Positions 43,741 to 63,671 of a stretch of 64,000 nucleotides of DNA are shown here, in pieces. The notes beneath the pieces are model-generated. The model searched no databases, was not told the DNA's origin, and saw nothing but the letters and a program-made list of their open reading frames with translations. The stretch's first letter is position 1. Each line of letters begins with the position of its first letter. A program made the position numbers and the translations under genes. The stretch covers positions 1 through 64,000 of the forward strand of contig JACRDD010000045.1 of assembly GCA_016218685.1 (NCBI GenBank), written 5' to 3'. This stretch comes from Desulfobacterales bacterium. GTDB lineage: Bacteria > Desulfobacterota > Desulfobacteria > Desulfobacterales > Desulfosarcinaceae.

Positions 43741-46700
43741 TCAGTCGGACCGGCGCGCGCATAGCCATAGCAGCTCTCCGTTGGTGCCCGAGGGGGCCGT
43801 CTTTTCGACGGTGAAGCCCTTGGCCGTCAAGAGGGCCTGAAGCGCTTCCAGCGATCGAAACCAGGTCGGCAGGCCGTGGCGCCTGTTCTTCAACTGGTCC
43901 AGCCAGAAGGACCAGGGCCGGGGCCGGGTCGGCCACATGACGGCGCGGATGACCAGGGGCGCGCCGGCTTTCAAATGCCCGTGCAGGCGCACCAGCGTCA
44001 ACGCAAGATGATCGTCGTTCAGGTAGTGCAGCATGTCCAGCATGAAGGCGCCGTCGGCCTCTTGGGAGATCGGCGGCAGATCGGGGGCCGCGCCTCGCAC
44101 CACGGTGCCGTCGGCACCCAGGGCCTGGGAGGAAACCCGCACTCGATCGGCGGAGGGTTCGATGCCGTAGAGCTTGACGCCGGGAAAGGTTTCGGCCAGC
44201 CAGCAGGCGGGCACACCGTAGCCGGTGCCAATGTCCACCAGGGTCCGGGGCGGTGCGGCAAAACAGGCGAGCTGCTCCGGCAGCTCACGGAACATGGGGT
44301 CCAATTGCAGCTTGAAGCGGGCGAACATGCGGGCATTGGGCTCCATGCGAGCATAGCGCGCACGGATGCGCTGTGCCAGGTCGGCCGAAGGGGGGAGCGG
44401 CCGCGGGGTTTCGAAACGCCACTTGAGCAGCGGCGGCAGAATCAGAAAAGCGCCCAGCAGCGAGTAACCGATGCCCAGAGCCCCGGCGATGCCGGCACTT
44501 TGCAACAAGGCGTGTTGGGCCATGGCCATGACGCCGAAACCGATCAGGGTGGAGCAGGCCGACATCACCACGGCCGAGCGGATCAGGGTGAAGGCCGGAT
44601 GCCGCGCGCGGCCGTAACGCTGGTAGGAGCGTACCACGAACAGGGAGTAGTCGATGCCCGTGCCCAGGACGATGACCGCCAGGATCAGGGCCGGGATATC
44701 CAGGGGCCGGCCCAGCAGGGAGAGGGTGCCCAGCGAGCAGACCATGGCAAACAGGACCGGCGCCAAGGCCATGAGGGTCAAGCCCACATCCAGGAAGAAG
44801 ACCAACAGCAGGATCGCCACGGCCGCGCCGATGATAGCCAACAGCTTGACGAAGGTGTCGAACAGCAAATGCCCCAACCGTTTGGAAAACAGGTTGGGAT
44901 CGAAGATCCGCGCCGTGTCGCGGTAGCGATCGTAAAAGCCGCTGTCCGTGTACGCCCGCGGCAGGATCAGGCCGGCGAACTGGCGCCAGGGTGCGTCGCC
45001 ACGGCCTTCGGCGACGCCCACCAGAGGCCTGAAGGCTGCGGGGATGCCGGGCGCGGGCAGCCGCGCTTCGGACGGGTCCAGAAGCGCAAAGAAAGGGTCG
45101 AAGGCCTGGGGCGTAAAGCCGGCTTGAATGCCGGCCGAAGACAAAGTCTGTTTCAGTTCGGCCACCCGGGGCGCCGTCCAGAACTCTTTCCAGGCGGCCA
45201 AGTTGGCGGCGCTGCGTTCGCTGCCCGGGAAGATCATGGAGGGCAGAAAGGCCTGGGCCAGCAGGGCCGGCTCCGGATCGGCCTCCAACTGGACCAGGAG
45301 GCGATCGTTGGCGTCCTGCAGGGCCGCCAGGGAGTCGGCTTCGGTCATCAGGAAGATCTTGCTGAAGATCTCTCCCCAGGTGGCCGTCAGCTTGGCTTCC
45401 GCCGCCCTCGTGGCCTGGCTGACGGTGTTCATGGCGCTGAGGTTGACGTCGAAATTGGGTTTGGCGAAGAGGAGCAGTCCGCCGAAGAGCAGCAGGGCGA
45501 TGACGGCGCCGGTTTTGCCGAAAGAGAAGAGGCGGTCGGCCACCCGCGGCAGCGGCAGGCCGCGTTCCCGCGAGGCCGGCAGCGACGGGAAGATCAGCGG
45601 AAAGATCGTATGGACGAATAGAAAAGCGAAGCAACTGCCCAGGGCGGAAAACAATCCCAACTGCCGGAAGATGGGAAAGTCGCTCAGCATCAAGGCCGTC
45701 AGTGCGCCCACGGTGGTCAGCTCGGCCAGCAACCCCACGGACCAGATCTCGTGGGCCGCCTCCTTGCCGAAGGTCTCCTGGGGCCGGTCGAGAAACAGCA
45801 GGTAGGCGATGCCCTGGTCCACGGCAATGGAGATGATAGCGCCGCCGAAGCCCAGCACCAGGATCGAGATGGAGGGCCGCAACAGGGCGAAGACAAAGAA
45901 GGCGACCATGGTGCCCACCAGGGCCGGCACCAGGGAGAGCAATCCGATCCAGGGCCGGGGAAAGGCCAGCAGTAGCAGTAAAGCGATGCCCAGGGTCGAG
46001 AAGAAAACCGCTTTTTGCACGTCGGCCCGCACGATGACTTCGTTGTCCAGGGCCGCGCGGTAAGCGCCCACGGGGGTCAAGCGCACCGCCAGGCCCTGGC
46101 CGGCAAAGCGCGCGCGAAAGTCTTCGCCCAGTTGCTCCAGATAAGCGGCCAGTTGACGGGCGGAGGCGCCGTCGGTGCCGGACACCTTGGGAACGGCGGT
46201 CAACAGGACGTGGCGACCGTCGCTGGAAAGCAGATGGCCCTTATAAATCCGAGCCGATTGGGTGGGGGCCAGGTTGATCATGCGGGCCAGAACCAGATCC
46301 TTGAGCCCCAGCGGGTCCAGGGCCAGCAGGCCGGCCTGGCCGATGCCGTCCATTTGCAGCAATCCCTGCTGCAGCGCGTCCACGCGCCGGGCCACCTTCC
46401 GCGGTTCGAGCAGCGGCCGGACCCGTTCTTCCAGCTCCCTGCGGGTGAAGAGCATTGGCAGGCGCTCGGCCACGCTCTGGGCCAACTGGGGCAAGACCTT
46501 GGCCACATCTTCCATGCCCACGCTCTTGAACAGGCCGCTGGCGCGCAATTCTGCTTCCACGGCCAGGGCGCAGGCCACCAGGTCGTCCGCATGGCCCTTC
46601 GCCAGCTCCAGGTCGATGGTCAACTGATCCTGGTAGGGGTGATGCTTGAAGATGTACATGGCATCCTGGATCACCGGATCGTCCTGGGGCAAGGAGGAGA

Positions 46701-46824
46701 CGATGTCGGTATCGATGCGGATCAGGTGCCAGCCCGCGGCAAAGAGGCCGGCGGCGATGGCCAGGACGAAGAAGAGCAGCGGCAGGTTGGTGGTGCGGTC
46801 CGATTGCATGGGCATCCGTTTCAT
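43741..46824 (-). CDS. MMPL/RND-type exporter fused to a C-terminal SAM-dependent methyltransferase
   Basis: 1027 aa. Residues 1-790 are an MMPL-family transporter with two groups of transmembrane helices separated by large periplasmic loops (VFFSTLGIALLLLLAFPRPW, IISIAVDQGIAYLLFLDRPQ, ALILAVIVLGTGIDYSLFVV, STLIGFGVMAMAQHALLQSA). Residues 820-1027 are a class I methyltransferase with motif I TLVDIGTGYGVPACWLAETF at about 860 and ADGAFMLDMLHYLNDDHLAL. In aryl-polyene clusters an MMPL exporter and a methyltransferase occur as separate genes; here they share one frame with no stop. Likely exports a lipid product across the inner membrane. Last gene of the minus-strand arm. Confidence 0.9.
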   Translation of the reverse strand: MKRMPMQSDRTTNLPLLFFVLAIAAGLFAAGWHLIRIDTDIVSSLPQDDPVIQDAMYIFKHHPYQDQLTIDLELAKGHADDLVACALAVEAELRASGLFKSVGMEDVAKVLPQLAQSVAERLPMLFTRRELEERVRPLLEPRKVARRVDALQQGLLQMDGIGQAGLLALDPLGLKDLVLARMINLAPTQSARIYKGHLLSSDGRHVLLTAVPKVSGTDGASARQLAAYLEQLGEDFRARFAGQGLAVRLTPVGAYRAALDNEVIVRADVQKAVFFSTLGIALLLLLAFPRPWIGLLSLVPALVGTMVAFFVFALLRPSISILVLGFGGAIISIAVDQGIAYLLFLDRPQETFGKEAAHEIWSVGLLAELTTVGALTALMLSDFPIFRQLGLFSALGSCFAFLFVHTIFPLIFPSLPASRERGLPLPRVADRLFSFGKTGAVIALLLFGGLLLFAKPNFDVNLSAMNTVSQATRAAEAKLTATWGEIFSKIFLMTEADSLAALQDANDRLLVQLEADPEPALLAQAFLPSMIFPGSERSAANLAAWKEFWTAPRVAELKQTLSSAGIQAGFTPQAFDPFFALLDPSEARLPAPGIPAAFRPLVGVAEGRGDAPWRQFAGLILPRAYTDSGFYDRYRDTARIFDPNLFSKRLGHLLFDTFVKLLAIIGAAVAILLLVFFLDVGLTLMALAPVLFAMVCSLGTLSLLGRPLDIPALILAVIVLGTGIDYSLFVVRSYQRYGRARHPAFTLIRSAVVMSACSTLIGFGVMAMAQHALLQSAGIAGALGIGYSLLGAFLILPPLLKWRFETPRPLPPSADLAQRIRARYARMEPNARMFARFKLQLDPMFRELPEQLACFAAPPRTLVDIGTGYGVPACWLAETFPGVKLYGIEPSADRVRVSSQALGADGTVVRGAAPDLPPISQEADGAFMLDMLHYLNDDHLALTLVRLHGHLKAGAPLVIRAVMWPTRPRPWSFWLDQLKNRRHGLPTWFRSLEALQALLTAKGFTVEKTAPSGTNGELLWLCARRSD

Positions 46825-47562
46825 TTAGGGAAAGACCAGCCACAGCAGTACCGCCAGGCCCACGATGTGCAGGATCACCAGCGGGGTCCGGCGGCGGTGC
46901 CAGAACTCGTTGAACTTCTGGATGCGCCGCAGCCCGCCGCACCAGCGCCGGAAGCGGTCCAGGCGGCGCAGGCGGTAGTTGTCCGAGGCGGCGTTGCTCT
47001 GGAAAGCGAACATGGGGTAGCAGCCATAGAAACCCTGGTTCAGGCGGGCCATCACCGCATCGATGGGCAGGCCGCGCCAAGGGTGTTGGGTCAGGGTTTC
47101 GGCGCACGGCCGGTTCACGGCATAGGCGTGGGTCAGGCAGCCGTAAGAGATCGCCCGCACCGCCGGCGAAGCCGTGGCCCGACTGCCCTTGACAAGGCAG
47201 CCCAGGAAAAGGATTTGCCAATCGGGCTGCCCGTCCAGAAACGCCAGGGCCGCGGCGAAGCGTTGGGGATCGAAGCCTTCGAAGAGCACATCGTCTTCGA
47301 AGATCAGCAGCCGGCGGGCGCCCTCGGCAAGCCCCCGGCGCAAGCAGGCCAGGTGGGATTCGTAGATGCCCTGCTCGCAATCCGTGGGGTGGCGGTCGGC
47401 AACGTAAAATATCACGCGGCCGGTCAATCCCACCCGGGCGAACTGGGCCTCGGCCTGGACGCGGCGGTCGGGCCGCTCCTTGAGGGTGATGCAGAAGATC
47501 CGGTCGAAGAACGACCAGGGGTCGGCGCCGGGCGCCGGTTGCATTTGAACACGATCCGTCAT
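46825..47562 (-). CDS. Glycosyltransferase family 25 (LPS-type) with C-terminal membrane anchor
   Basis: About 245 aa. DRIFCITLKERPDRRVQAEA is the GT25 opening; RLLIFEDDVLFEGFDPQRFA contains the EDD metal/nucleotide motif, and GCLTHAYAVNRPCAETL follows. A final hydrophobic helix (LVILHIVGLAVLLWLVFP) anchors it. The start at 47562 gives a normal N-terminus; the frame is open to 47613 but overlaps the divergent gene's leader. It probably adds a sugar to the cluster's product or to its lipid carrier. It abuts the MMPL gene with no gap. Confidence 0.85.
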   Translation of the reverse strand: MTDRVQMQPAPGADPWSFFDRIFCITLKERPDRRVQAEAQFARVGLTGRVIFYVADRHPTDCEQGIYESHLACLRRGLAEGARRLLIFEDDVLFEGFDPQRFAAALAFLDGQPDWQILFLGCLVKGSRATASPAVRAISYGCLTHAYAVNRPCAETLTQHPWRGLPIDAVMARLNQGFYGCYPMFAFQSNAASDNYRLRRLDRFRRWCGGLRRIQKFNEFWHRRRTPLVILHIVGLAVLLWLVFP

Positions 47563-47611
47563 CTTGGATAGACCTTGATTGTCCCCTGCCGGTCGGCTAT
47601 GGTTTCGGCCC

Positions 47612-48019
47612 ATGACCGCCGATCATTCAACGTTTTCCTTCACACCCATCCAGTGGCTGGTCGCCAGAATCGCCGCCACGCGCTTCGTGCGCCAGGCCCT
47701 GGCGGATAATGCCGACCTGAGCGCCTTCAAAGGCAAACCGTCCCTTAAAGTGATTCTGGGGGTTACGGCCATCATCATCAGCTACATCATCGGCTGGCCG
47801 GCCGTGGCGTTGCTGGGATTCCTGGCGGCCTACTATGGACGGCCGGCCATCGTCGTGGTGGGCGGCCCGCTGATCTACGGTCTGTCCCACCTGGTGTTCC
47901 TGCTGGGCATGTACCTGGCCGGCGCCCAATATAGTTGGATCTTCCTGCGCTGGCTGACCCGGGTGACCATGCTCAAACTGCTCAAACGCTATCCTGCCGC
48001 CGCGCCGCCCGTGGAGTAA
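47612..48019 (+). CDS. Small membrane protein inside the biosynthetic cluster
   Basis: 135 aa, the only plus-strand gene in the minus-strand arm. Helices are visible at LKVILGVTAIIISYIIGWPA, VALLGFLAAYYGRPAIVVVG and GPLIYGLSHLVFLLGMYLAG. No ribosome site is obvious and I do not recognise a family. Codon pattern and hydrophobicity make it a believable gene. Confidence 0.65.
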   Translation: MTADHSTFSFTPIQWLVARIAATRFVRQALADNADLSAFKGKPSLKVILGVTAIIISYIIGWPAVALLGFLAAYYGRPAIVVVGGPLIYGLSHLVFLLGMYLAGAQYSWIFLRWLTRVTMLKLLKRYPAAAPPVE

Positions 48020-48032
48020 TCTTTCCGCGGCA

Positions 48033-48653
48033 TCATTCACCAGGCCTATCCTGCTTTTCATCGACCCTTGGCGCCCGCTGCATGCGCCACCAGGCTTGGA
48101 TATTGCCCCGATGGAACCAGACGATGGCCGCCACCGTGACGAGCAGGGCAAACTGGGCCGCAGGCGCGCCGCGCCAGTGGACCAGGCCGAAGCCGGCCAG
48201 GGTGGCCAGGATGCCGAAAGAGCCCCAAAACGGGGCGCGGGTCAGTCCGAACAACAGCCCATAGGCCGCCACGGCCAGCGCCGCACCCAGGGGCAGCAGC
48301 AAAAGATAGAACCCCAGAAAGTTGGCCACCCCCTTGCCACCCCGCCAGCCGTGAAAGCAGGGAAAGCGATTGCCCAGGATCAGGGCCAGCCCGGCCCACG
48401 GCACCAGCGCAACATCCCACAACTGCACGGCCAGCAAGGCCACGCCCATGGCCCGGCCGGCATCCAGCAGCAGCACCAGCAAAGCCAGGGGCCAGCCGGC
48501 CTGGCGATAGACATTGGTGACGCCGGGATTGCCGCTGAAATGCGCGCGCGGATCTTCTCTGCCCAGCAGGCCGAAGAGTACGATGGAGAAATTGATCGAC
48601 CCGGCCAGGTAAGCGGCCAGCAGGCCGAAGAAAAAACGCGCCACCATCGTCAT
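48033..48653 (-). CDS. plsY: Glycerol-3-phosphate acyltransferase PlsY
   Basis: 206-aa inner-membrane enzyme that transfers acyl groups from acyl-phosphate to glycerol-3-phosphate. Family motifs: AAYLAGSINFSIVL (motif 1), SGNPGVTNVYRQAGWPLAL (motif 2; the usual SGNPGATN with Val), NRFPCFHGWRGGKGVANFLG (motif 3). Five or so helices. Its place inside a ketosynthase cluster suggests the acyl product may be placed on glycerol phosphate; it could instead be the housekeeping PlsY. Confidence 0.9.
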   Translation of the reverse strand: MTMVARFFFGLLAAYLAGSINFSIVLFGLLGREDPRAHFSGNPGVTNVYRQAGWPLALLVLLLDAGRAMGVALLAVQLWDVALVPWAGLALILGNRFPCFHGWRGGKGVANFLGFYLLLLPLGAALAVAAYGLLFGLTRAPFWGSFGILATLAGFGLVHWRGAPAAQFALLVTVAAIVWFHRGNIQAWWRMQRAPRVDEKQDRPGE

Positions 48654-48691: not shown

Positions 48692-50197
48692 CTATACCGG
48701 ATAGAGCACTGTGATCAAATGATCTTCCAGCTCGGCGTGGCGCGCCGCCACCGCCGGGCCGGCCTCGATTTCCACACGACTCTGCTCCAGGCCAATCTCC
48801 AGTACGCGCACCCGGGCCCAGGCATCGGCCAGGTGGATATTGAGCATCTTGGCCGCCGCCTCCTTGACCGTCCACACCCGCGTGGCGGCTGCCGCCGGGC
48901 CCAGGGGCGAAGGCTTCACCAGCATCTGCTCGGCGGCATGGGCGAAGATATGCAGGCTTTTCAAAATGCGATCCGCCATGCGCTCCACATCCACGCCGAT
49001 GGGCCCGTTGGCGGCCACTGCCAGGGTGAAGCGCCGGTCGTGGGCCACGCTGCAATGAAAGCGCGAAGCGCCGGCGATGGGCCGGATGCCATCGTCGGCC
49101 AGGGTGTGGATCTGCGCCGCCGGCGTTCGGCCCTGGTCGCCCGTCAGCTCGCGGAAAAGCCGCTTGCAGGCCAGGCGGGACGAGTAAAAATCGGTGCGGC
49201 GCTTGGGGCTCATCTTGACCGTACGCCGCCGTTCCGTATCGGAAAGGCATCGCTCGGCAAAGGGCATCAGGGTGGCGCGCTCGATGAGGACCGTGGCCGT
49301 GCATGCGGCCGCGAGGGTTTCGAGGCCGCCTTGCCCGTGGCCGGCACGGACCCAGTCCGGTGGCACCAGCGTTCCGCCGCTGACATCGCGCATGCGCACG
49401 CCATGGAGGATTTCGAAAAGCTCTCCCTGGAGATCCACGATCCAGATCTCGAAGATCAACACCCCCTCATCCTGCCCCAAAGGGAAAATCCGGCCCACGT
49501 AAGTCTCTCCGGGCCGCGTGGGCCGCACGATCACGCGCTGATCGAAACCCACGGGAAAGGCCACGATCCCGGCCTGGCGCTGGCTCCAGACACAGGCGGC
49601 ATGCAGGGCGGCATCCAGGACCCGGGGCGCGCCCAGGGGCGCGTCGGGCGGGTCGTCGCCGGGGGCATCGATGACCGCCAGGGCCCCTTCGGCCGTGACC
49701 AACAATGGCCGGGAAATGGTCTGAAAAGCGGTACCGAAAGGAACCAGGTCGCGATAAAGGGCTTCGGGATCGACGGTGAAGCAGCGGCCGGCCAGGGCCG
49801 CGGCCAGATCCAGGGCCGCCGGGGGCGACAGCGCTTCCATGGGCTGGAACTCCACCTGTGCATGGATCTTGGCGCGGGTCATCTGGGACGATTTGGCCTG
49901 GGTTTTGGTGAGCAGGGCCGTGCGCAGGGCGCCGTCGGGCTGCATGCGCAGCTCGCACCAGGCCGCGATGGATTCGCCGGCCGGCGGCAACTCCAGGAAT
50001 TTGTCAAAGACGGCGTTGCGCAGTCGATGGACGCACAGGCCCGGTTTCAGCGCTTGGGCCCAGCCGGCCAGCAGTTGCAAGGCCTCCACGGCAGGCAACA
50101 CGGCCCGCCCCTGGAAGTGGTGATCGACCCAGTGGGGCGCAACCGAAATGGTGACGGCCAGCCGGCCGTCGGGGCCTATTTGGGAAAGATCGCCCAT
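48692..50197 (-). CDS. Polyketide-type dehydratase fused to 4'-phosphopantetheinyl transferase
   Basis: 501 aa in one frame. The N-terminal ~280 residues form a double-hotdog PS-DH domain with the canonical HxxxGxxxxP motif HHFQGRAVLP (His26) and QRQAGIVAFPVGFDQRVIV further on. The C-terminal ~220 residues are an Sfp-type transferase (IGVDVERMADRI and RVWTVKEAAAKMLNIHLADA, the WxxKEA magnesium motif). It would both dehydrate 3-hydroxyacyl-ACP and activate the cluster's carrier proteins. The start at 50197 overlaps the thioesterase gene by 22 nt; the open frame further upstream is a shadow of that gene. Confidence 0.88.
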   Translation of the reverse strand: MGDLSQIGPDGRLAVTISVAPHWVDHHFQGRAVLPAVEALQLLAGWAQALKPGLCVHRLRNAVFDKFLELPPAGESIAAWCELRMQPDGALRTALLTKTQAKSSQMTRAKIHAQVEFQPMEALSPPAALDLAAALAGRCFTVDPEALYRDLVPFGTAFQTISRPLLVTAEGALAVIDAPGDDPPDAPLGAPRVLDAALHAACVWSQRQAGIVAFPVGFDQRVIVRPTRPGETYVGRIFPLGQDEGVLIFEIWIVDLQGELFEILHGVRMRDVSGGTLVPPDWVRAGHGQGGLETLAAACTATVLIERATLMPFAERCLSDTERRRTVKMSPKRRTDFYSSRLACKRLFRELTGDQGRTPAAQIHTLADDGIRPIAGASRFHCSVAHDRRFTLAVAANGPIGVDVERMADRILKSLHIFAHAAEQMLVKPSPLGPAAAATRVWTVKEAAAKMLNIHLADAWARVRVLEIGLEQSRVEIEAGPAVAARHAELEDHLITVLYPV

Positions 50198-50661
50198 AGG
50201 TGCAACGTCTTCTCGTCGATGCCCACGGGCGTGCCCTTGGCGTTCACCGCGCAGTGCCGGGTAAAACCGGTGCAGACCAGGTCGCCGCTGGGCACGTGGG
50301 TGATCACATAGTCGAACTGCAATTTGACCCGCTCCAACGTGCCGGGCCGGGTGTGGATATGCATGGCGTCGTCGTAGTGCAGCGGACGGAAGTACGAAAG
50401 GGCCGTGGCGATGATGGGGTAGACAAAGCCGCTCGCTTCGATCTCCTTGTAGGCATAGGCCGCGTCGCGCATGAGCGAGGCCCGGCCGAACTCGAAGTAG
50501 CGCAGGTAGTTGGAGTGGTAGACCACCTGGGAACGGTCGGTATCGACGTACAGCGTGCGCAGATCGCAACGGTGCCACACTAGACCGCTGGTCCGGTCGC
50601 GCACATAGGCGCCCTCGCCATTGCCATCGAGGGGTTGGGGCCGGAAAGGTTTGGGTCGCAC
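50176..50661 (-). CDS. Acyl-CoA/ACP thioesterase (4HBT/YbgC type)
   Basis: 161 aa. LRTLYVDTDRSQVVYHSNYL is the 4-hydroxybenzoyl-CoA thioesterase signature, with the catalytic Asp at about residue 42. A GTG start at 50661 is used, one base after the ketosynthase stop, with GAGGAG six nt upstream. It probably releases or edits acyl chains. Such thioesterases are common in aryl-polyene-type clusters. Confidence 0.88.
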   Translation of the reverse strand: MRPKPFRPQPLDGNGEGAYVRDRTSGLVWHRCDLRTLYVDTDRSQVVYHSNYLRYFEFGRASLMRDAAYAYKEIEASGFVYPIIATALSYFRPLHYDDAMHIHTRPGTLERVKLQFDYVITHVPSGDLVCTGFTRHCAVNAKGTPVGIDEKTLHLWAIFPK

Positions 50662-50662
50662 G

Positions 50663-55280: not shown

Positions 55281-55288
55281 CGTCGCTT

Positions 55289-55983: not shown

Positions 55984-57348
55984 TCAACGCACCAGATATT
56001 CCCACAAGGGCCCGCTGCGGCCGCGCCGGTACATGCGCCGCATGATCCGCACCGCCGCTTCGCCCCCCGACCCATGGACCCAATTGTCCCGGCCCCGGGC
56101 GTATTCGTCCAGGCGCTGGGAGATGGTGGACAGGCTGATGCCGGGGGGCTGGTAGAAGACCGGGGCCACGATGCTTTGGGAGGCCGTGATCTGACCTTGC
56201 CGCAAGGCGATGTCATAAAGGCCGGTATGCGGATAAATGCGCATACCGCCAAAGAGAAATAGAACGGTTCTTTCGAGCTTGTCAATATGTGCACAAGAGT
56301 CTGCCAGGGTCTCCTCGGTCTCCCCCGGTCCGCCGAACAGAAAGTAGTGGGCCACGTGCAGCCCGGCCGCCACGACCGACGCATGGGCCGCCAGCACCTG
56401 TTGCCGCCGGAAGGGTTTGCCGTAAGCCTCCAGCACCGCATCGTTCAGGGACTCGGTACCGAACTCCACATGCTTGAGCCCGCAGGCCGCCATGGTCTGG
56501 AAATAGTCGTCCGGCAGGGCAATGGGCGCGAAAAAGGCGCCCCAGGGGATGGCCAGGCCCTGCTGTTGGAAGGCGCGGGCCACGGCCAGGCTGTGCTCGA
56601 TGTCGGCGTTGAAGGCCGAATCGGTAATAAACAGGTAGCGCGCCCCGGCCGCCTGGAGCCGCAGGGCCATGGCCGCCACCTGCTCGGCCGGCACGCGGCG
56701 CATGCTCCGGCCTTCGATGTGCGGATAGCTGCAATAGACGCAGCGGAAGGGGCAGCCGCGCTTGGTCTGGAGGTTGAGCATGCCGCCGTTTTGCAGATAA
56801 AAATCCAGGTGCGCAGCCTGGGGGTCGAAGCGGCGCGCGACTTCCCGGGACCAGGGTTCCGGCGCGGATTCGACCGAAGTACCGCCCTTGCCCCTCCCCA
56901 CCTTCACCCCCGGCAGCCCGCCGGGGTCCTGACCGGCGGCCAAGGCCTGAAGCAGCGGTGCCAGGCGCTCGCCTTCGCCCACGATGCCGTAATCGGCCGC
57001 CAGCAAGGCCATGGTCTCATCCGGAAAAATGGTGAAACCGCTGCCCCCCAGCACGATGGGCGCGTCGCTGCAACGGCGCATGCGCAGGACCAATTGGCGG
57101 TGCCCGTCCATGAACCCCTTGGGGTCGCGGCTGTCGGTGTTGTCCACGTTGCGCAGGGAGAGGCCGATCACTTCCGGCCCGAAGGCCTGAATGGCCTGCT
57201 CCAAGGCGTTCGCCTCGGTCAGGCAGTTCAGGTCCAGGCAGCGCACCGCGTGGCGGTCGGCAATGGCGCCGGCCACGTAATCCAGTCCCAGGGGATAGAC
57301 CGGAAACGGTTCCTGCACCGTATTGGCGGAGACCAGCAGCACTTTCAT
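55984..57348 (-). CDS. B12-binding-type radical SAM protein 1
   Basis: 454 aa. An N-terminal Rossmann-like B12-binding region (KVLLVSANTVQEPFPVYPLG, PIVLGGSGFTIFPDETMALL, YGIVGEGERLAPLLQAL) is followed by a radical SAM core with KRGCPFRCVYCSYPHIEGR (Cys199, Cys203, Cys206) and YLFITDSAFNADIEHSLAVA, EFGTESLNDAVLEAYGK. The cobalamin-ligand motif DxHxxG is absent. Relatives methylate or cyclise unactivated carbons. Overlaps the KS-CLF stop by 4 nt. Confidence 0.9.
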   Translation of the reverse strand: MKVLLVSANTVQEPFPVYPLGLDYVAGAIADRHAVRCLDLNCLTEANALEQAIQAFGPEVIGLSLRNVDNTDSRDPKGFMDGHRQLVLRMRRCSDAPIVLGGSGFTIFPDETMALLAADYGIVGEGERLAPLLQALAAGQDPGGLPGVKVGRGKGGTSVESAPEPWSREVARRFDPQAAHLDFYLQNGGMLNLQTKRGCPFRCVYCSYPHIEGRSMRRVPAEQVAAMALRLQAAGARYLFITDSAFNADIEHSLAVARAFQQQGLAIPWGAFFAPIALPDDYFQTMAACGLKHVEFGTESLNDAVLEAYGKPFRRQQVLAAHASVVAAGLHVAHYFLFGGPGETEETLADSCAHIDKLERTVLFLFGGMRIYPHTGLYDIALRQGQITASQSIVAPVFYQPPGISLSTISQRLDEYARGRDNWVHGSGGEAAVRIMRRMYRRGRSGPLWEYLVR

Positions 57349-59504
57349 GGCAACGCGATCCTCACGGCCGACAGATAGGGGCCCAGGCCCAGGAGCAGCA
57401 CCCCTTTGCCCTCCAGCGGGCATTCGACACCCCCGGCCAGGGCGGCCGGCACAGCTTGGCCTTGAACCATGCGCAGGGCCAGCACGGCGGCCACGGCCGA
57501 GGCGGCGCCGAATTGGCCGACGGCCCGCCGGTAGTCGATCACCGGGCCGTCAAAGCCACTGGCGGCCGCGAAGGCGGCCAGATCCCGGGCCGCTTGCGCC
57601 GCATGGGCCGCGGGGATGCCGGCTAAAACAGCCCCGCAGGTCTCCCGAATTGCCCGCGCCCCGCCCAGGCTCTCTATTAAATGATGCACGGCCTCCGGGC
57701 CGGTATCGTGCCCATAGGCCAGCAGGCTGAGGGTGGGTCCCGGCGCCCCGCCGCGCCGCAGCAGCAAGGCGCCGCCGCCATCGGCCAGGGGGGCGTTGCG
57801 CACGGAAGGGTCCAGCAAGGGCGCCAAGACCGGCTGGGCCTCGTCCACGCCCACCACCAGAATGGATTGGCCCGGATCGTCGGTCAGCAGATCGGCGGCC
57901 AGCAAGGCCTGCTCGAACGAGGCGTCGCCCCCCGAGGTAGTGACGTTGGCCCCCCGGGCCCCCAGGTGCATGGCGATCTGGCCGGCGGGCGCGTTGTGCA
58001 CCGAGCCGATGAAATCGGTGGGCGAGGGAAACTGTTGACCGGTTTCAAAGAGGCGCTGGAGAAAATCGTGGGTCTCGGAGAGCGCGCCCCAGGCCGTGCC
58101 CAGGCTGATGGCGGCCGGCAACCCCTCGGGGGCCACCCCCTGGCAGGCCTGGGCCGCCAGGGCCAGGGCCAGCTTGGGCAGCCGCTTGAGCCGCCGGAGG
58201 GTGCGCGGCGGCAACCCCTGGCACAGGGTCGTTTCGTCCAGGCAGCCGGCACAATCCCCGCCAGCGGCAAAACGCTCCCAGGTGGCCTGGTCGTGACCAA
58301 CGCCGGTGAGCCCGGCCGCGGCCGCGATGGTCAGCGGGGGTCGTGCGGCGGTGGAGCTTTTCGCCCGAGTCCGGTCTTTACCGATCACCAGGGCCGCATT
58401 GTTGCCGCCAAACCCGAAGGAGTTGGAGAGCACGGTGGCGATGGGCGTCCGCAGGGGCACCGTCAGCGGATTCAGCTTCAGTTGCGCATCGACGTTCGTC
58501 AGCCCCGTATTGGCCGGGGCCAGCCCATGGGACACGGCCAGGGCGGCCACCACGGCTTCGAGGGCGCCGGCCGCGGCCAGGCTGTGGCCAGTGGCCCCTT
58601 TGATGGACGAGAGCGGCGGCGGGCGCTCCCCAAAAAGGGCGCTGACGGCCCGGGCCTCGGCCAGGTCGTTGTCCAGGGTGCCGGTGCCGTGCAAATTGAT
58701 GTAGTCGATCTCGCCGGCCGCCAACCCGGCATCGGCCAGGGCGGCCTGCATGGCGGCCAATGCCCCCCGGCCTTCGGGATGGGGTGTGGTGGCGTGATGG
58801 GCGTCGCACGACAACCCTGCGCCCAGCAGTTGCGGCGCACCGGCGGCCTGGGCTTCGCTGGTCAACAGCAGCATCCCCGCCCCCTCGGCCACCGACATGC
58901 CGCGCCGTTCCCGGTCCAGGGGGCGCGCCCCGAGAGGATCGATGAGTTGCAGGGCTTTGAAGCCGAAGTAGGTCAGGCGGCAGAGGCTGTCGGCGCCGCC
59001 GGCCAATACCCGCCGGGCCAAGCCGCGGCGCAGCAGCGCCATGGCCAGGGCGATGGCCACCGCGCCCGACGAGCAGGCCGTGGAAACCGTGATCAGCGGG
59101 CCGCGGCATGCGCAGCGCCGGGCCAACACCTCGGCGATGGTGCCCAAACCATGATAGCGAAAAGCAGCCGGGTCGGTGGCGCCACTTTGCAGAAGGGCTT
59201 CGGTCGTCAGAATGCCGCCGGTGGTGGTGCCCAGCACGATGGCATCCAGGGGCCGGGGATCTTCGGCCATAGTTTGGTCGGCGGCCAGGCCGGCCAGGCG
59301 ATGGGTGCGCGGCAAGGGATCGCCCGCGTCGTCCTCCAGATCCACCTGACCCACGGGCAGGGCCGCTTCGGACGCTACCGGAAACAGGTCCAAAGGCCCC
59401 AGGCCGCACCGGTCGTGCAACAGGGCTTGCAGCATCCCGTCCGTGCCGCGCGCAAGGGCGCTGACCGCGCCCAGGCCCGCGATGTAAATCGGAACTTCGC
59501 TCAA
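57345..59504 (-). CDS. Ketosynthase fused to a chain-length-factor-like domain (KS-CLF)
   Basis: 719 aa. Residues 1-385 are a complete KS: VSTACSSGAVAIALAMALLR (Cys144), YINLHGTGTLDNDLAEARAV, IKGATGHSLAAAGALEAVVA. Residues 400-719 are a second, shorter ketoacyl-synthase-type domain (RRLKRLPKLALALAAQACQ, DFIGSVHNAPAGQIAMHLGA, TTSGGDASFEQALLAADLLT) in which the Cys position is occupied by GGDAS. Catalytic Cys is therefore missing, as in chain-length factors of aryl-polyene systems (Ketoacyl-synt_2). There the KS and CLF are usually separate proteins forming a heterodimer; here they are one polypeptide. Overlaps ACP2 by 4 nt. Confidence 0.9.
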   Translation of the reverse strand: MSEVPIYIAGLGAVSALARGTDGMLQALLHDRCGLGPLDLFPVASEAALPVGQVDLEDDAGDPLPRTHRLAGLAADQTMAEDPRPLDAIVLGTTTGGILTTEALLQSGATDPAAFRYHGLGTIAEVLARRCACRGPLITVSTACSSGAVAIALAMALLRRGLARRVLAGGADSLCRLTYFGFKALQLIDPLGARPLDRERRGMSVAEGAGMLLLTSEAQAAGAPQLLGAGLSCDAHHATTPHPEGRGALAAMQAALADAGLAAGEIDYINLHGTGTLDNDLAEARAVSALFGERPPPLSSIKGATGHSLAAAGALEAVVAALAVSHGLAPANTGLTNVDAQLKLNPLTVPLRTPIATVLSNSFGFGGNNAALVIGKDRTRAKSSTAARPPLTIAAAAGLTGVGHDQATWERFAAGGDCAGCLDETTLCQGLPPRTLRRLKRLPKLALALAAQACQGVAPEGLPAAISLGTAWGALSETHDFLQRLFETGQQFPSPTDFIGSVHNAPAGQIAMHLGARGANVTTSGGDASFEQALLAADLLTDDPGQSILVVGVDEAQPVLAPLLDPSVRNAPLADGGGALLLRRGGAPGPTLSLLAYGHDTGPEAVHHLIESLGGARAIRETCGAVLAGIPAAHAAQAARDLAAFAAASGFDGPVIDYRRAVGQFGAASAVAAVLALRMVQGQAVPAALAGGVECPLEGKGVLLLGLGPYLSAVRIALP

Positions 59505-59773
59505 TTGGCGAGCCCCGGAGATTTTTCCTGGATATAGGCGGCCAGGGTCCGCAGGGAGGCGAAGACTTTGGCCCCCAGCTCTTTGTTGTCGATCACCACC
59601 CCGTAATCCTTTTCGATCATGATGACCATTTCCAATACATCGATGGAATCGATGCCCAATTCGCCGCCCACCAACTGCCCGTCCAATGGGATATCGGCGG
59701 GCGTAACATCCGGCAGGTTGAGGATCTCCACGATCTTGACGCGCAATGCTTCGATGAGTTTGTCCATATCCAT
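59501..59773 (-). CDS. Acyl carrier protein 2
   Basis: 90 aa with the attachment Ser43 in GGELGIDSIDVLEMVIMIEK. First gene of the minus-strand arm, translationally overlapped by the KS-CLF, which is its likely partner. Confidence 0.92.
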   Translation of the reverse strand: MDMDKLIEALRVKIVEILNLPDVTPADIPLDGQLVGGELGIDSIDVLEMVIMIEKDYGVVIDNKELGAKVFASLRTLAAYIQEKSPGLAN

Positions 59774-59811
59774 GAGATGACCGGTCGCGCCTTTCTTTTG
59801 AATCCGCGTTT

Positions 59812-59825
59812 ACAGCTATGGCTGT
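59812..59825. promoter_or_regulatory. Inverted repeat ACAGC-TATG-GCTGT in the divergent promoter region
   Basis: Perfect 5-bp arms between the two divergent arms of the cluster (ACP2 at 59773 and the dehydratase at 59935). ATAGTA lies close by at 59829-59834. A shared operator is plausible. Confidence 0.4.
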
Positions 59826-59934
59826 TTATAGTACCATCCGCCCCGATGCAAGCGAACCGGAAGGTTGGCAATTTCTACCCGGAACAGGCCGGTTTTTCAA
59901 TGATTTTATGCCGGCCCAGGCAAGGAAGCAGCGC

Positions 59935-60354
59935 GTGGATCTGGAAACCCTCGTGCCCCATCGCGACGGCATGCTGCTCGTTTCCGAAATCGTCTCCTTC
60001 GACGATGGCGGGGCGGTCACCCGCGCCGTAGTGAATGCACGCTGGCCCCTGACCGGCCCCGGAGGCGCCGACCCGCTGGTGCTCATCGAGCTGGTGGCCC
60101 AGACCGCGGCGGTCAACAACGGCTGGGAGATCATCCAGCGCCAGGGACCGGAGCGCGACCACCGCGGCTGGATCGTGGGCATCAAGAGCGCCCGGCTGCT
60201 GGTGGACCGCATCGCCCTGGGCACGACCTTGACCATCGCTTCGCGCAACCAGTTCGCCTATGAAAATTTCCGGGAGATCGCGGGCACGGTGAAAATCGAA
60301 AACGAGGTAGTTGCCGAAGTAACTCTTCAGCTCATGCAGGCGGAACCATCATGA
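59935..60354 (+). CDS. ApeP-like 3-hydroxyacyl-ACP dehydratase (hotdog)
   Basis: About 139 aa. VDLETLVPHRDGMLLVSEIV and DDGGAVTRAVVNARWPLTGP are typical of the small hotdog dehydratase of aryl-polyene clusters, with the His of PHR as probable catalytic residue. A GTG start at 59935 is chosen because AAGGA lies eight nt upstream and the length then fits the family; an ATG at 59818 in the same frame would add 39 residues without homology and no ribosome site. Its end overlaps fabG (ATGA). Confidence 0.85.
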   Translation: MDLETLVPHRDGMLLVSEIVSFDDGGAVTRAVVNARWPLTGPGGADPLVLIELVAQTAAVNNGWEIIQRQGPERDHRGWIVGIKSARLLVDRIALGTTLTIASRNQFAYENFREIAGTVKIENEVVAEVTLQLMQAEPS

Positions 60355-61088
60355 ACAATACTTCCCAAATGCCGGCGGCCCTGGTCACCGGCGGCAGCAA
60401 AGGCATCGGCCGGGCCATCTGCGTGGAACTGGCCCGCAGCGGATACGCGGTGATCGTCAATTATCTTTCGGATGAAGCCGGCGCCCGGGAGACCCTGGCC
60501 CTGGTGGAACAGCAGGGCGGCCAGGGCATCTGCCTGGGCTTCGATGTCTCCGATTACGCGGCCACCCAGCAGGCCATGGAGAAGATCTTCGGCGCCTACC
60601 CGGCGCTGGAGGTGCTGGTCAACAATGCCGGGCGCATCGCCGACGAACTGTTCGTCATGATGACCCCGGACAAGTGGCGCTCGGTGGTGGATGTCACCCT
60701 GCAGGGCTTTTACAACGTAACCCGGCCGGTGCTGGAAAAGATGGTCGTGCGGAAAAAGGGCTCGGTGGTCTCCATCGCCTCGGTGGCCGGCATCATGGGC
60801 AATCGCGGCCAGGCCAACTACGCCGCCGCCAAGGCCGGCCTGATCGGCGCCAGCCGCTCGGTGGCCTCGGAAGTGGCCCGCCTGGGCATCCGGGTGAACG
60901 TGGTGGCGCCGGGCCTGATCCAGACCGGCATGATCCACGACGCGCCGGTGCAGAAGATCAAGGGCCTGATCCCCATGGCCCGCCTGGGTGCCCCCGAGGA
61001 AGTGGCCCGGGTGGTGCGTTTTCTCTGCTCCGAGGATGCCAGCTATGTCACGGGCCAGGTGATATCCGTCAACGGAGGCATGTTCTGA
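60351..61088 (+). CDS. fabG: 3-oxoacyl-ACP reductase FabG-like
   Basis: 245-aa short-chain dehydrogenase: LVTGGSKGIGRAICVELARS (NADPH loop), LVNNAGRIADELFVMM, and the Ser144-Tyr157-Lys161 triad in SIASVAGIMGNRGQANYAAA then KAGL. It reduces the 3-ketoacyl group made by the KS proteins. It ends in CTGA, shared with the CTG start of the next gene. Confidence 0.94.
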   Translation: MNNTSQMPAALVTGGSKGIGRAICVELARSGYAVIVNYLSDEAGARETLALVEQQGGQGICLGFDVSDYAATQQAMEKIFGAYPALEVLVNNAGRIADELFVMMTPDKWRSVVDVTLQGFYNVTRPVLEKMVVRKKGSVVSIASVAGIMGNRGQANYAAAKAGLIGASRSVASEVARLGIRVNVVAPGLIQTGMIHDAPVQKIKGLIPMARLGAPEEVARVVRFLCSEDASYVTGQVISVNGGMF

Positions 61089-61699
61089 GACCATTCAAAC
61101 CCATCAAAGGATGGTGGCTCATACCCTTGCTGGCCCTTTTCTGCGTGGGCTGGGGAGATAGCTGGGAGACCCTGCGGACCACCGCCGCCAGCGTGACTTC
61201 GGTCCAGGCCGATTTCGTCCAGGAGAAGCATTTGCCCATCCTGGCCAAGCCGCTGGTCTCCCAAGGTGCCTTTTACTACCAGAAACCCGGCGCGTTGCGC
61301 TGGGAGTACCGTTCGCCGGTGCAGAGTATCATGCTCATGCACGACGGCCACACCCGCCGCTTCGTGGCCGGCCCCTCGGGTTGGACCGAAGAGCGCGGCG
61401 CCGGCCTGGAGGCCATGCAGGTGGTCATGGAAGAGATCAGCCAGTGGCTGGCCGGTAATTTCAGCGATAACCCCATGTTCGAAGCCAAGTTGGAGCCGGG
61501 ACGGCGTATCCTCATGATTCCCAAGGAAGAGGCCATGCGTCAGGTGATCCAGCGCATCGAACTGAATCTGGCCGACCGGCCGGGGGTCATGCAGAGCGTG
61601 GTGATCTACGAGAGCGAGCAGGCCTTCACCCGCATGACCTTCGGCCACACGGTGCTCAACGCCAAGATCGACGAAGCCCTCTTCCGGAGCGCACCTTGA
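61085..61699 (+). CDS. LolA-like outer-membrane lipoprotein carrier protein
   Basis: About 204 aa. A short signal peptide (WWLIPLLALFCVGWG) is followed by the LolA pattern (TSVQADFVQEKHLPILAKPL, GAFYYQKPGALRWEYRSP). Start codon: no ATG/GTG/TTG lies in place, whereas a CTG at 61085 has GGAGG exactly six nt upstream and overlaps the fabG stop. LolA-type carriers accompany aryl-polyene clusters and probably ferry the product through the periplasm. Confidence 0.85.
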   Translation: MRPFKPIKGWWLIPLLALFCVGWGDSWETLRTTAASVTSVQADFVQEKHLPILAKPLVSQGAFYYQKPGALRWEYRSPVQSIMLMHDGHTRRFVAGPSGWTEERGAGLEAMQVVMEEISQWLAGNFSDNPMFEAKLEPGRRILMIPKEEAMRQVIQRIELNLADRPGVMQSVVIYESEQAFTRMTFGHTVLNAKIDEALFRSAP

Positions 61700-62373
61700 A
61701 ACGGTTGTGCGTCATTCTCCTGCTGACCATTTTGTCGCCGGCCTGCGCCCGGCTGCCGGAAATCCGCGACGTTCAACCCGCAGCCGCCCAGCGCACGGCG
61801 GCCGAGTGCGCGGCCATCTTCCCGAAGGGGGTGTGGCAGTTCGCCCACGCCATCCAGTTCTTCCCGCCGGACGGATCGTCCAAGACCCTGGTGGGTATCG
61901 TTCGCCTTTCGTCCGAAGCAAAGCGCTTCGACTGCGTGATGATGACCATCGAAGGGCTGGTGCTCTTCGAAGCCGAATACGATGGCAGGATTAAGATCAA
62001 AAGGGCCATCGCCCCCCTGGACAAACCGGGGGTGGCCGAAGGCATGGTCGAAGATATCCGCCTGATCTTCTTCGCTCCGGAGCCATGGGGCGTGGAGACC
62101 GGATTCACGCCAGAGGGCGAAAGCATCTGCCGCTATCCCCTGCCCGACGGCGGCCGCGAAGAGATTTTACCGGGCGGGGACGGCGCCTGGGAGATTCGCC
62201 GCTACGCTCCGAACCACCGGCTGCTGCGCAGCGTCGCGCCCCTTGCGGGCGACAAGGTTCCCCTCGCCGGCATTCCCGCCCGGGTAGAACTCAAGGCCCC
62301 CGGCCTGGCCGGATACCGCCTGGTCATGCGCCTGGTAGAAGCCATTCCCATCGAACAGGAAAGCAAACCATGA
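61696..62373 (+). CDS. DUF3261-like lipoprotein
   Basis: 225 aa with a lipoprotein-type signal (KRLCVILLLTILSPAC). The body (GVWQFAHAIQFFPPDGSSKT, FDCVMMTIEGLVLFEAEYDG) has the pattern of DUF3261 proteins found next to LolA in aryl-polyene clusters. TTG start at 61696 overlapping the LolA stop (TTGA), with GGAG nine nt upstream. A role in outer-membrane insertion is inferred from context. Confidence 0.75.
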   Translation: MKRLCVILLLTILSPACARLPEIRDVQPAAAQRTAAECAAIFPKGVWQFAHAIQFFPPDGSSKTLVGIVRLSSEAKRFDCVMMTIEGLVLFEAEYDGRIKIKRAIAPLDKPGVAEGMVEDIRLIFFAPEPWGVETGFTPEGESICRYPLPDGGREEILPGGDGAWEIRRYAPNHRLLRSVAPLAGDKVPLAGIPARVELKAPGLAGYRLVMRLVEAIPIEQESKP

Positions 62374-63671
62374 AGCTGACGCTCATCTACCCCCGCTGGC
62401 CAAAACTGATGCGCCAGACCGAATTTCACCTGCCGCCCCACGGCCCGGTGGTCTTTGCCGCGGCCCTGCCGCCCGAGATCGCCGTCACCTTCGTGGACGA
62501 GAACCTGGAAGAGATCGATTTCGACGACCGGCCCGACGTGGTGGCCATCTCCATGATGCTCACTATCCAGGTTCGGCGCGGCTGGGAGATCGCCGACATT
62601 TTTCGCCGCAGGGGCGTGCCCGTGATCTTCGGCGGCATCGCCACCATGCTGCATGCCGAAGAGACCCAGGCCCACGCCGACGCCGTCTTTCTGGGCGAAG
62701 CCGAAGGCCGCATGGAAATGCTCTTCGACGACCTGCGCCGGGGGCAATTGAAGCCGGTGTACGACTTTATCCAAGATCCACCGCCCATCGAAACGGTCGG
62801 AACCGCCCGGCGCGACATCCTGCGCCGGGAGTTCTACAACTACAAGGGCGTGCAGATGGTGGACCTGGTGCACGCCTCCCGGGGCTGCCGCTACAACTGC
62901 TACCCCTGCTGCGTGGCCTACCTGGGCGGGCGCAAGTTCCGGCCCCGGCCCATCGAGCGCACCATTGCCGAGTTGGCCGCCATCGACAACAACCGGCTCT
63001 TCATCGTGGACAACTCCCTGGCCCAGGATACCCAGTGGGAGCTGGATCTCTTCCGGGAGATGATCCCCCTGAAGAAGAAGTGGTGCTGCCACCCCATCGA
63101 AGACAACCCCAAGGTGCTCGACCTGGCAGCCCAGGCCGGCGCCTGGTACGTCTACCAGGCCATCTTCGACACCTCGGACTACATCCGCGAACGCGTCAAG
63201 CGCTACCACGATCACGGCATCGGCGTGGAGGGCACCATCCTGCTCGGCCTGGACGAGCACAGCGAAGACGACATCAAGCGCCTGATCGATTTTCTGCTGA
63301 AGATCGAGCTGGACCTGGCCGAATTCACGGTGCTGACCCCCTTTCCCCACACCCAGGCCTGGGAGGCGCTGCACCGCGAAGGACGCATCTTCTCCTACGA
63401 CTGGAACGACTACACCGCCGACCAAGTCGTCTTCCACCCCAAGCAGATGAGCGCCCAGCGCCTCCAGGAGCTGCTGGCTTACGCCTGGGACACCTTCTAC
63501 CAGGATGAACCCCAGCCCATGAAAATGTCCAAACTCTTCGCCCAGGTGATCCGCAAGGAGATGGCCGACAACACCTATCGCCCGCGGCGGCGGGAGCTGC
63601 GCGATCAAGCTTTCGGAAAGCAAATTGCCCGAGAACACAAGCACAATCATCTGGAAAACCCTTTAACCTGA
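62370..63671 (+). CDS. B12-binding-type radical SAM protein 2
   Basis: 433 aa. N-terminal B12-binding-like domain (KLTLIYPRWPKLMRQTEFHL, PPEIAVTFVDENLEEIDFDD, VIFGGIATMLHAEETQAHAD) and radical SAM core with VHASRGCRYNCYPCCVAYLG (Cys173, Cys177, Cys180, with an extra Cys181), then RLFIVDNSLAQDTQWELDLF and GVEGTILLGLDEHSEDDIKR. It overlaps the lipoprotein gene (ATGA), so it belongs to the cluster. It is not a close paralogue of the 55984 gene. Reaction unknown; hydrophobic chain or ring modification is plausible. Confidence 0.9.
   Translation: MKLTLIYPRWPKLMRQTEFHLPPHGPVVFAAALPPEIAVTFVDENLEEIDFDDRPDVVAISMMLTIQVRRGWEIADIFRRRGVPVIFGGIATMLHAEETQAHADAVFLGEAEGRMEMLFDDLRRGQLKPVYDFIQDPPPIETVGTARRDILRREFYNYKGVQMVDLVHASRGCRYNCYPCCVAYLGGRKFRPRPIERTIAELAAIDNNRLFIVDNSLAQDTQWELDLFREMIPLKKKWCCHPIEDNPKVLDLAAQAGAWYVYQAIFDTSDYIRERVKRYHDHGIGVEGTILLGLDEHSEDDIKRLIDFLLKIELDLAEFTVLTPFPHTQAWEALHREGRIFSYDWNDYTADQVVFHPKQMSAQRLQELLAYAWDTFYQDEPQPMKMSKLFAQVIRKEMADNTYRPRRRELRDQAFGKQIAREHKHNHLENPLT

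Follow-up and report, generated by a model that had tools for sequence, protein, structure and literature searches.

A candidate aryl polyene-type envelope-lipid cluster with a conserved tandem radical SAM pair in a Desulfobacterales bacterium

We analyzed a stretch of DNA from a Desulfobacterales bacterium (hereafter the window), which comprises the first 64000 bases of the 130409-base contig C34 in a genome of 3.80 Mb, 45 contigs and 64.6% completeness. A search of this genome for a 16S gene found none, a weak negative given that the control recovered the gene in only 9 of 14 genomes. Gene calls made with a codon-model gene caller, together with Pfam and NCBIfam scans for protein families, reveal that positions 43741-63671 hold one divergent lipid-type cluster of 20 genes on two strands. 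The cluster resembles those for aryl polyenes (APEs) in its ketosynthase (KS), acyl carrier protein (ACP), ketoreductase and dehydratase genes, and it also codes for four radical S-adenosylmethionine (SAM) proteins, two of which are the tandem paralogs that we call rSAM1 and rSAM2.

The conservation of this cluster was followed by searching with rSAM1 in an order sample of 58 genomes and a phylum sample of 395 genomes. The other genomes that carry rSAM1 total 39 (12 from the order sample and 27 from the phylum sample), and 28 of these are covered by a presence table of the cluster genes. The table omits four genomes with short contigs (G400, G413, G428, G414) and seven without a 20-kb stretch (G088, G117, G130, G171, G231, G357, G368). 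Its regions are 16 to 60 kb long, its score thresholds were chosen by us, and absences may reflect the ends of contigs or regions. The genes of the cluster are as follows, with the number of the 28 regions in which each is present.

43741-46824, minus strand: MMPL/RND exporter with a C-terminal class I SAM methyltransferase domain, 1027 residues (Pfam MMPL 58.1 bits and Methyltransf_25 34.5 bits, both above cut-off); 10/28
46825-47613, minus strand: GT25-like glycosyltransferase (Pfam 26.8 bits against a cut-off of 24, with no single stretch that passes); 6/28
47612-48019, plus strand: small protein of a family without a Pfam match, between the GT25-like gene and plsY; 15/28
48033-48653, minus strand: PlsY, acyl-phosphate:glycerol-3-phosphate acyltransferase (Pfam G3P_acyltransf 112.2 bits); 10/28
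48692-50197, minus strand: polyketide-type dehydratase (DH) fused to a 4'-phosphopantetheinyl transferase (PPTase) (Pfam PS-DH 37.1 and ACPS 39.3 bits, scored on a longer frame that starts at 50578; the start at 50197 is the choice of the codon model); 26/28
50176-50661, minus strand: 4HBT / YbgC-FadM-type thioesterase (Pfam 4HBT_2 48 bits; TIGR00051 78.3 bits, above its cut-off of 68.7); 26/28
50663-51928, minus strand: KS2, FabF-like ketosynthase that keeps the catalytic Cys/His/His; 27/28, median identity 70%
51952-53202, minus strand: KS3, FabF-like ketosynthase that keeps the catalytic Cys/His/His; 27/28, median identity 65%
53216-54214, minus strand: rSAM1, radical SAM protein with a C-terminal Cys motif and no named family (Pfam 27.5 bits, just below the cut-off of 29.5); 27/28
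54231-55292, minus strand: rSAM2, paralog of rSAM1 at 31% identity (Pfam radical SAM 31.2 bits); 28/28
55289-55561, minus strand: ACP2 (Pfam PP-binding 35.1 bits; GIDSM motif); 27/28
55605-55952, minus strand: FabA/FabZ/ApeI-type dehydratase (Pfam FabA 36.7 and ApeI-like 30.1 bits, both above cut-off); 25/28
55984-57348, minus strand: B12-binding radical SAM protein 1 (B12rSAM1), a member of TIGR04072, rSAM_ladder_B12 (388.6 bits, cut-off 360); 20/28
57345-59504, minus strand: fusion of a KS with a chain-length factor (KS-CLF), ApeO- plus ApeC-like (Pfam; best PDB match 6QSP chain A); 14/28
59501-59773, minus strand: ACP1 (Pfam PP-binding 32.4 bits; GIDSI motif); 22/28
59935-60354, alternative start 59818, plus strand: ApeP-like dehydratase (Pfam ApeP-like 20.5 bits, below the cut-off of 27; FabZ model 28.3 bits, below 113); 16/28
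60351-61088, plus strand: FabG/ApeQ-type ketoreductase (NCBIfam FabG 295.5 bits, above 273; FlxB model 292.1 bits, below 340); 17/28
61127-61699, plus strand: LolA-like (ApeL-like) periplasmic carrier (Pfam LolA 47.5 bits, above 23.6; flexirubin LolA2 model 97.3 bits, below 125); 13/28
61696-62373, plus strand: DUF3261-like (ApeN-like) lipoprotein (Pfam 16.4 bits, below 22.3; its position between the LolA-like gene and the next gene is conserved); 13/28
62370-63671, plus strand: B12-type radical SAM protein 2 (B12rSAM2; B12-binding match 28.6 bits, below 32.1); 13/28, 72-78% identity

Both ACPs contain the DS motif and all four radical SAM proteins contain CxxxCxxC. In the KS-CLF protein the KS half has the Cys/His/His residues, while the CLF half lacks catalytic residues as chain-length factors do. 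The ketoreductase is additionally hit by PF13561, a broad Pfam model, but among the NCBIfam models it is FabG whose cut-off it exceeds. Thus, the gene calls, Pfam and NCBIfam bear out the elements that a preliminary description of the window had listed from the DNA alone, with the ApeP-like and DUF3261-like proteins among the weaker assignments. That description had also counted two B12-type radical SAM proteins; B12rSAM1 passes the TIGR04072 cut-off, and the B12-binding match of B12rSAM2 falls short of its own.

The tandem pair is highly conserved. A full-length rSAM1 ortholog is present in 13 of the 58 order-sample genomes, our own included, with the other 12 at 77-86% identity and 634-690 bits. 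Beyond these orthologs the sample yields the rSAM2 paralogs of the same genomes (110-147 bits) and then noise below 35 bits. At E<=1e-60, rSAM1 occurs in 28 of the 395 phylum-sample genomes, our own included (the other 27 at 71-84% identity), and rSAM2 scores above 540 bits in the identical 28 genomes. In a 29th phylum genome, G018, one relative at 35% identity stands in a different gene setting. As judged by these searches, the rSAM1-rSAM2 pair is specific to this cluster. The C-terminal Cys motif of the pair, C-C-x5/6-C-x2-C, is invariant across 17 aligned rows and is the basis for the earlier label 'SPASM-like'; the label is not borne out by the family models, as no SPASM model matches either protein, Pfam gives nothing beyond the core domain of radical SAM proteins and a weak match to Fer4_12, and the NCBIfam SPASM-type models align to the core region only. 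A solved relative that would explain the pair was sought and rejected, the best profile match being SkfB at 52.5 bits and the next only 26.9. Separately, a search of viral contigs with the rSAM1/rSAM2 query (profile A1) returned one weak relative, 28% identical over 79 residues.

The genes around this pair travel with it. The order ACP2-rSAM2-rSAM1-KS3-KS2-thioesterase-DH/PPTase is near-invariant wherever the region was examined, contig breaks aside; one such break occurs in G434, where the locus is split across two contigs and rSAM1, KS3, KS2, the thioesterase and the DH-PPTase lie on the second (L085). All 20 cluster genes occur in the same arrangement in L075 (genome G406), and most of them do so in L074, L078, L116, L117 and L118. 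This gene order is shared with relatives from other families and goes far beyond chance. The preliminary description was to be refuted if relatives did not keep its radical SAM genes together with KS genes; they do keep them together with KS2 and KS3, and less so with KS-CLF, which is present in the genomes of at least 17 of the 28 regions when G085, G039 and G077 are counted, where it lies on the same contig at or just beyond the region edge. To the left of the cluster (37276-43383) are an AAA33/APH-type kinase, a PabBC-like fusion of chorismate-binding and aminotransferase IV domains, and an AAA_14-DUF4143 protein. The PabBC-like gene (38940-41216) and the kinase gene (37276-38904) were considered as cluster members that would supply a starter unit from chorismate; both were rejected, since searches at 300 and 200 bits, respectively, found them in none of the 28 relatives' regions.

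The locus extends past position 63671 in four relatives, and our own contig has a second module at C34:79478-87264, about 16 kb downstream. In order, this module codes for a fifth radical SAM protein, PlsC, a KS, an ACP, an LpxL-type acyltransferase, a GT2 glycosyltransferase, a DegV-Dak2 protein and a 4HBT thioesterase. Its radical SAM protein has BchE as best NCBIfam match (178.9 bits, below the cut-off of 481), and the DegV-Dak2 protein combines DegV, Dak2 and a FakA-like middle domain in one chain. The module lies directly after B12rSAM2 or less than 5 kb away in G432, G406, G401 and G281, with the radical SAM gene lacking in G432 and a 4HBT match lacking in G281, and parts of it are near or within the cluster in G134, G039, G077, G047, G301 and G014. 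In our contig the tail of B12rSAM2 (C34:63289-63619) is partly copied at 71998-72327 (94.6% over 331 bases), and the tail of the module radical SAM gene (C34:79478-79682) is partly copied at 77917-78120 (91.7% over 205 bases). These repeats suggest one or two insertions at the ends of genes as the origin of the 16-kb intervening stretch. Beside the module, C34:88617-90374 (L002:8617-10374) codes for an alpha/beta hydrolase-radical SAM/SPASM fusion with a GT28-like gene adjacent; accessory genes such as those of the module were tabulated for 20 merged regions, and the deacetylase and lyase genes mentioned below for a subset of the loci.

We next set the cluster and its downstream module against the APE gene list of E. 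coli (from Table 1 of PMC8253772). Candidates are found for the slots ApeC/O (the KS-CLF), E/F (the ACPs), I and P (dehydratases), Q (reductase), R (second KS), B (methyltransferase), D and J (acyltransferases and glycosyltransferase), K (thioesterase) and L, M and N (transport). KS-CLF has its best PDB match in 6QSP chain A (E 9.7e-56, 192.7 bits) by a narrow margin over 7F28 (190.6 bits), and the module KS (C34:81817-83055) has its best match in 4EWG (334.5 bits), then 7F27, with FabB at about 228 bits. According to PMC8358021, 4EWG is an ApeR homolog and 6QSP is the ApeO-ApeC complex. An ApeR-type second KS is thus present, in the downstream module only. The ApeI/ApeP plus ApeQ set of dehydratases and reductase is present as well, with the ApeI-like and FabG proteins above cut-off and the ApeP-like protein below, and so is the APE transport set, in which LolA and MMPL are above cut-off and DUF3261 is below it in a conserved position. 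The MMPL-methyltransferase protein would combine ApeM- and ApeB-like functions. Overall these matches uphold the kinship with APE and flexirubin clusters that the preliminary description had proposed.

No APE route to a starter unit was seen at the locus. Scanning of the cluster proteins with Pfam gave no AMP-binding domain, that is, no candidate for the ApeH acyl-ACP synthetase. Likewise, an anammox AMP-ligase used as query at E<=1e-4 had no match in our own contig or in the 28 relatives' regions; this is a single query of limited sensitivity, although it does find the ladderane-type loci L046, L051 and L161 and, weakly, L047. An aromatic ammonia lyase was not found in our own genome at its 64.6% completeness (the control was positive in 5 of 14 genomes). 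The earlier statement that neither an aryl-CoA ligase nor an ammonia lyase is to be seen at this locus stands.

With a probability of about 0.45, we read the locus as a pathway for an envelope lipid of the APE type (type II polyketide), the usual starter loading by ApeH plus 4-hydroxybenzoate being replaced or supplemented by a radical SAM acyl module. As the sequence shows, KS-CLF, ACP, the ketoreductase and the hot-dog dehydratases make up the polyene engine, and MMPL, LolA and the DUF3261-like protein the export set. The lipid-assembly set comprises PlsY in the window and the ApeR-like KS, PlsC, the LpxL-type acyltransferase, GT2, DegV-Dak2 and the second thioesterase downstream. No enoyl reductase was recognized among the annotated cluster proteins, and since a reductase and dehydratases are present, the chain is expected to be polyunsaturated, as in APE chemistry. 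Because ApeH is missing, the acyl unit made by the radical SAM block is suggested as the starter. In the proposed sequence of events, rSAM2 and then rSAM1 would act on an ACP2-bound acyl group, with KS3/KS2 and the dehydratase extending it. The unusual acyl unit might then prime KS-CLF or be attached directly, and the B12 enzymes could C-methylate or otherwise alter the chain. PlsY uses acyl phosphate, and Fak chemistry yields acyl phosphate. The thioesterase may free the acid for conversion by DegV-Dak2 (FakB-FakA-like) to an acyl phosphate, from which PlsY would load glycerol 3-phosphate. Finally, PlsC and the glycosyltransferases would complete a lipid that MMPL/LolA/DUF3261 might carry to the outer membrane. 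Methylation, glycosylation and placement on glycerol phosphate had already been put forward in the preliminary description, and we likewise infer them; the window offers PlsY, the GT25-like gene and the methyltransferase domain for these steps, joined downstream by PlsC, GT2 and the fatty-acid-kinase-like protein.

Several observations weigh against this APE-type reading with a radical SAM-derived starter. When 15 carrier genomes were searched whole, a KS-CLF ortholog (647-770 bits) was found in five, whereas the other ten had at best a match of 190-228 bits, 38-42% identical to the KS half. These ten are six genomes of family f41 (G347, G311, G250, G030, G067 and G229; 95-100% complete) and G083, G047, G408 and G415. 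Among them, G408 and G415 belong to the order of the window and lack KS-CLF, yet retain genes like those for ApeP and FabG next to the core. An aromatic ammonia lyase is present beside the cluster in two of the 28 relatives, G134 and G077 (L103:692-2227 and L115:6626-8188), and its presence suggests that these two use an ordinary aromatic starter. The two lyases are 51% identical to each other, and their best NCBIfam match is a tyrosine ammonia lyase model, far below cut-off. No candidate for ApeA or ApeG was recognized at the locus, in scans that did not include a targeted search for them. The AMP-ligase negative covers our own contig and the regions, in the case of our own bacterium from a genome that is 64.6% complete. 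In addition, the radical SAM substrates named above are guesses, and an AlphaFold model of rSAM1 alone has a mean predicted local distance difference test score of 39.1 and was not used for fold searches.

The ten carriers without KS-CLF lowered our confidence in the starter reading and raised that in a rival, in which two pathways share one locus. Here the radical SAM core (ACP2, rSAM1/2, KS2/KS3, thioesterase, DH/PPTase and often PlsY) would alone make an unusual fatty acid of glycerolipids, and the APE-type engine would be an independent pathway that frequently accompanies it. This rival is possible, and we hold it tentatively. It is consistent with the f41 loci, which keep the core, B12rSAM1, ACP1 and PlsY and are without ApeP, FabG, LolA and MMPL in the regions examined, and with the intact catalytic residues of KS2 and KS3, which could elongate a chain themselves. 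The radical core can thus probably make something on its own. However, in several genomes of the order (L074 and L075) and also outside it (L116), genes of the two halves are intermixed and form a single, divergently transcribed unit, and the f41 loci retain ACP1 and B12rSAM1, which in the window stand on the engine side.

The radical SAM proteins also lead to a second known kind of cluster. The preliminary description had placed them outside all described systems, a claim that is partly wrong, as candidate ladderane clusters join KS/ACP/FabG/FabZ with radical SAM proteins (Rattray 2009, PMC2649909; Javidpour 2016, PMC4790861) and B12rSAM1 itself belongs to TIGR04072. A KS/radical SAM cluster occurs in Kuenenia, and a syntenic one occurs in Desulfotalea psychrophila (Rattray 2009, PMC2649909); antiSMASH 'ladderane' calls in Desulfobacterota have already been reported with function unknown (PMC9902471). 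A further alternative is that the locus is a ladderane-type pathway, in which a polyunsaturated acyl-ACP is polycyclized by radical chemistry to strained rings. For this comparison, eight anammox genomes were reached with a primer pattern for hydrazine synthase. Two of the eight have a protein that passes the TIGR04072 cut-off, at the ladderane-type loci L161 (Brocadia carolinensis) and L162 (Jettenia ecosi). Specifically, L162 contains a polysaccharide deacetylase, a KS-like protein, methyltransferases, an AMP-ligase, a SPASM radical SAM protein adjacent to the TIGR04072 protein, MMPL, a phytoene-desaturase-like protein and GT2.

This ladderane alternative draws on the shared TIGR04072 family, on the MMPL and methyltransferase domains common to both kinds, and on relatives of the anammox SPASM radical SAM protein. 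The latter are found at 41-46% identity in 7 of 22 carriers of the window-type cluster, our own genome among them, compared with 56-59% in three of three ladderane-like genomes, and they lie near the cluster in G432, G406, G281 and G301 (42-46%), while the copy in our own genome is outside the window on contig C21 (41%). However, in a TIGR04072 tree of 64 rows the window-type proteins form a clade of 22 rows (support 100/100), whereas the two anammox proteins over cut-off (L145/L146) group with five loci of the window's phylum (L026-L030; 98/99). Seven lower-scoring anammox rows fall outside these clades, with weak placement. No match to the anammox AMP-ligase was found here, as noted above, and the phytoene-desaturase-like gene has no close match in window-type regions, only matches of 24-26% in three (G039, G047 and G132). 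The anammox MMPL resembles that of the window weakly (42.7 bits), and the methyltransferase gives no match at E<=1e-4. Profile searches found no rSAM1/rSAM2 ortholog in the eight anammox genomes, the scores being 71-78 bits in seven of them, confined to the radical SAM core, and 32 bits in one. Furthermore, D. psychrophila, whose cluster is syntenic with that of Kuenenia, made no ladderanes according to PMC2649909. Taken together, we regard a ladderane product as improbable.

Equation of rSAM1/rSAM2 with kuste3342/kuste3343 was rejected, as profile A1 against the anammox SPASM protein gives 96.6% probability, E 6.5e-10 and 20% identity, a relationship at the level of the superfamily; the kuste numbers were assigned to the Jettenia TIGR04072/SPASM neighbors by gene order from PMC4790861. 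None of the PDB chains matched by the dehydratase, ACP2, ACP1 or the methyltransferase domain could be identified as anammox.

Some neighbors of the SPASM and TIGR04072 genes deserve mention in their own right. A polysaccharide deacetylase and a SPASM radical SAM gene are divergent neighbors at C21:103473-105363 (L218:8474-10364) of our own genome, and such a pair lies at the MMPL end of the cluster in G432 and G406. Elsewhere on this contig (C21:67000-86999, L219), several radical SAM genes follow one another, some in large frames. In the TIGR04072 tree, the proteins of a third cluster kind also form a clade, with 23 members (100/98), which is sister to the window-type clade (97/92), and in 21 of these 23 loci a B12rSAM2 relative (57-65% identity) stands beside the TIGR04072 protein. 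In the loci L033-L043, a second cluster type within the phylum, the TIGR04072 protein (574-698 bits) is beside a B12rSAM2 relative (57-65%) in 11 of 11 cases. These loci also have KS or KS-CLF-like matches, most have ACP, 4HBT, MMPL or LolA matches, and L036 has an LpxL-type acyltransferase and GT2 in addition.

For the D. psychrophila cluster, Rattray et al. proposed a product of long-chain polyunsaturated fatty acids or hydrocarbons, and C31:8 and C31:9 hydrocarbons are described from this organism (PMC2649909). Transferred to the window, this proposal would agree with several dehydratases and no recognized enoyl reductase, which would leave double bonds in the chain. However, LolA, the DUF3261-like protein, MMPL, the acyltransferases and the glycosyltransferases fit an outer-membrane lipid better, and Pfam scanning of the cluster proteins detected neither an acyltransferase (AT) domain nor a multidomain synthase of the Pfa type. 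We therefore consider such a product highly improbable.

A broader version of the APE-type reading would join both cluster kinds. The rSAM2-rSAM1/KS3-KS2/ACP2 module would be an oxygen-free and ligase-free means of making a new starter or ring-bearing acyl unit on an ACP, which would prime KS-CLF in some lineages, and the APE-like and ladderane pathways would be branches of one anaerobic radical polyene lipid family whose shared logic is radical SAM tailoring of an acyl-ACP formed without an enoyl reductase. On the present evidence we think this rather unlikely, if worth stating. Ladderane biosynthesis has long been unsolved, since pure cultures of anammox bacteria are lacking and the candidate genes, when expressed in E. 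coli, yielded no new fatty acid (Javidpour 2016, PMC4790861). The present locus matters in this regard because it has a member of a ladderane-associated B12 radical SAM family in an APE-type cluster, next to the strongly conserved tandem pair (71-86% identity for rSAM1 among the other carriers), for which no named function was found, and because it predicts an anchoring route through the thioesterase, the fatty-acid-kinase-like protein, PlsY and PlsC.

Compared with the APE clusters of E. coli CFT073 and Xenorhabdus doucetiae, the locus is similar in its KS-CLF, ACPs, ApeI/ApeP-type dehydratases, FabG-type reductase, methyltransferase, LolA-like, RND/MMPL and DUF3261-like proteins and, in the downstream module, in its ApeR-like KS, acyltransferases, glycosyltransferase and thioesterase. 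It differs from them in that no ApeH was seen at the locus, KS and CLF are fused, and exporter and methyltransferase are fused. Additions are the radical SAM proteins, five when both parts are counted, an extra pair of FabF-like KSs with an ACP, the DH-PPTase fusion, PlsY and DegV-Dak2. In regards to flexirubin clusters, FabG resembles the FlxB model, LolA resembles the LolA2 model, and the ammonia lyases of the two relatives match the FlxA model (303 and 316 bits); all of these matches stay below the cut-offs of the models. With the anammox cluster (kuste3335-3352; L162 and L161) the locus shares type II KSs, ACP, a FabZ-like dehydratase, MMPL and methyltransferase genes and the TIGR04072 B12 radical SAM protein, and the anammox polysaccharide deacetylase has a partial 34% match to the deacetylase near window-type clusters. 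In contrast, the window TIGR04072 protein belongs to a clade separate from that of the anammox proteins, and L161 and L162 are without a strong B12rSAM2, LolA or DUF3261 match. Our literature search, which reached few subscription papers, returned no published description of an APE-type cluster with this radical SAM set. APE-type and ladderane-type clusters are known kinds, and the combination seen here, going by its genes, appears to be a variant.

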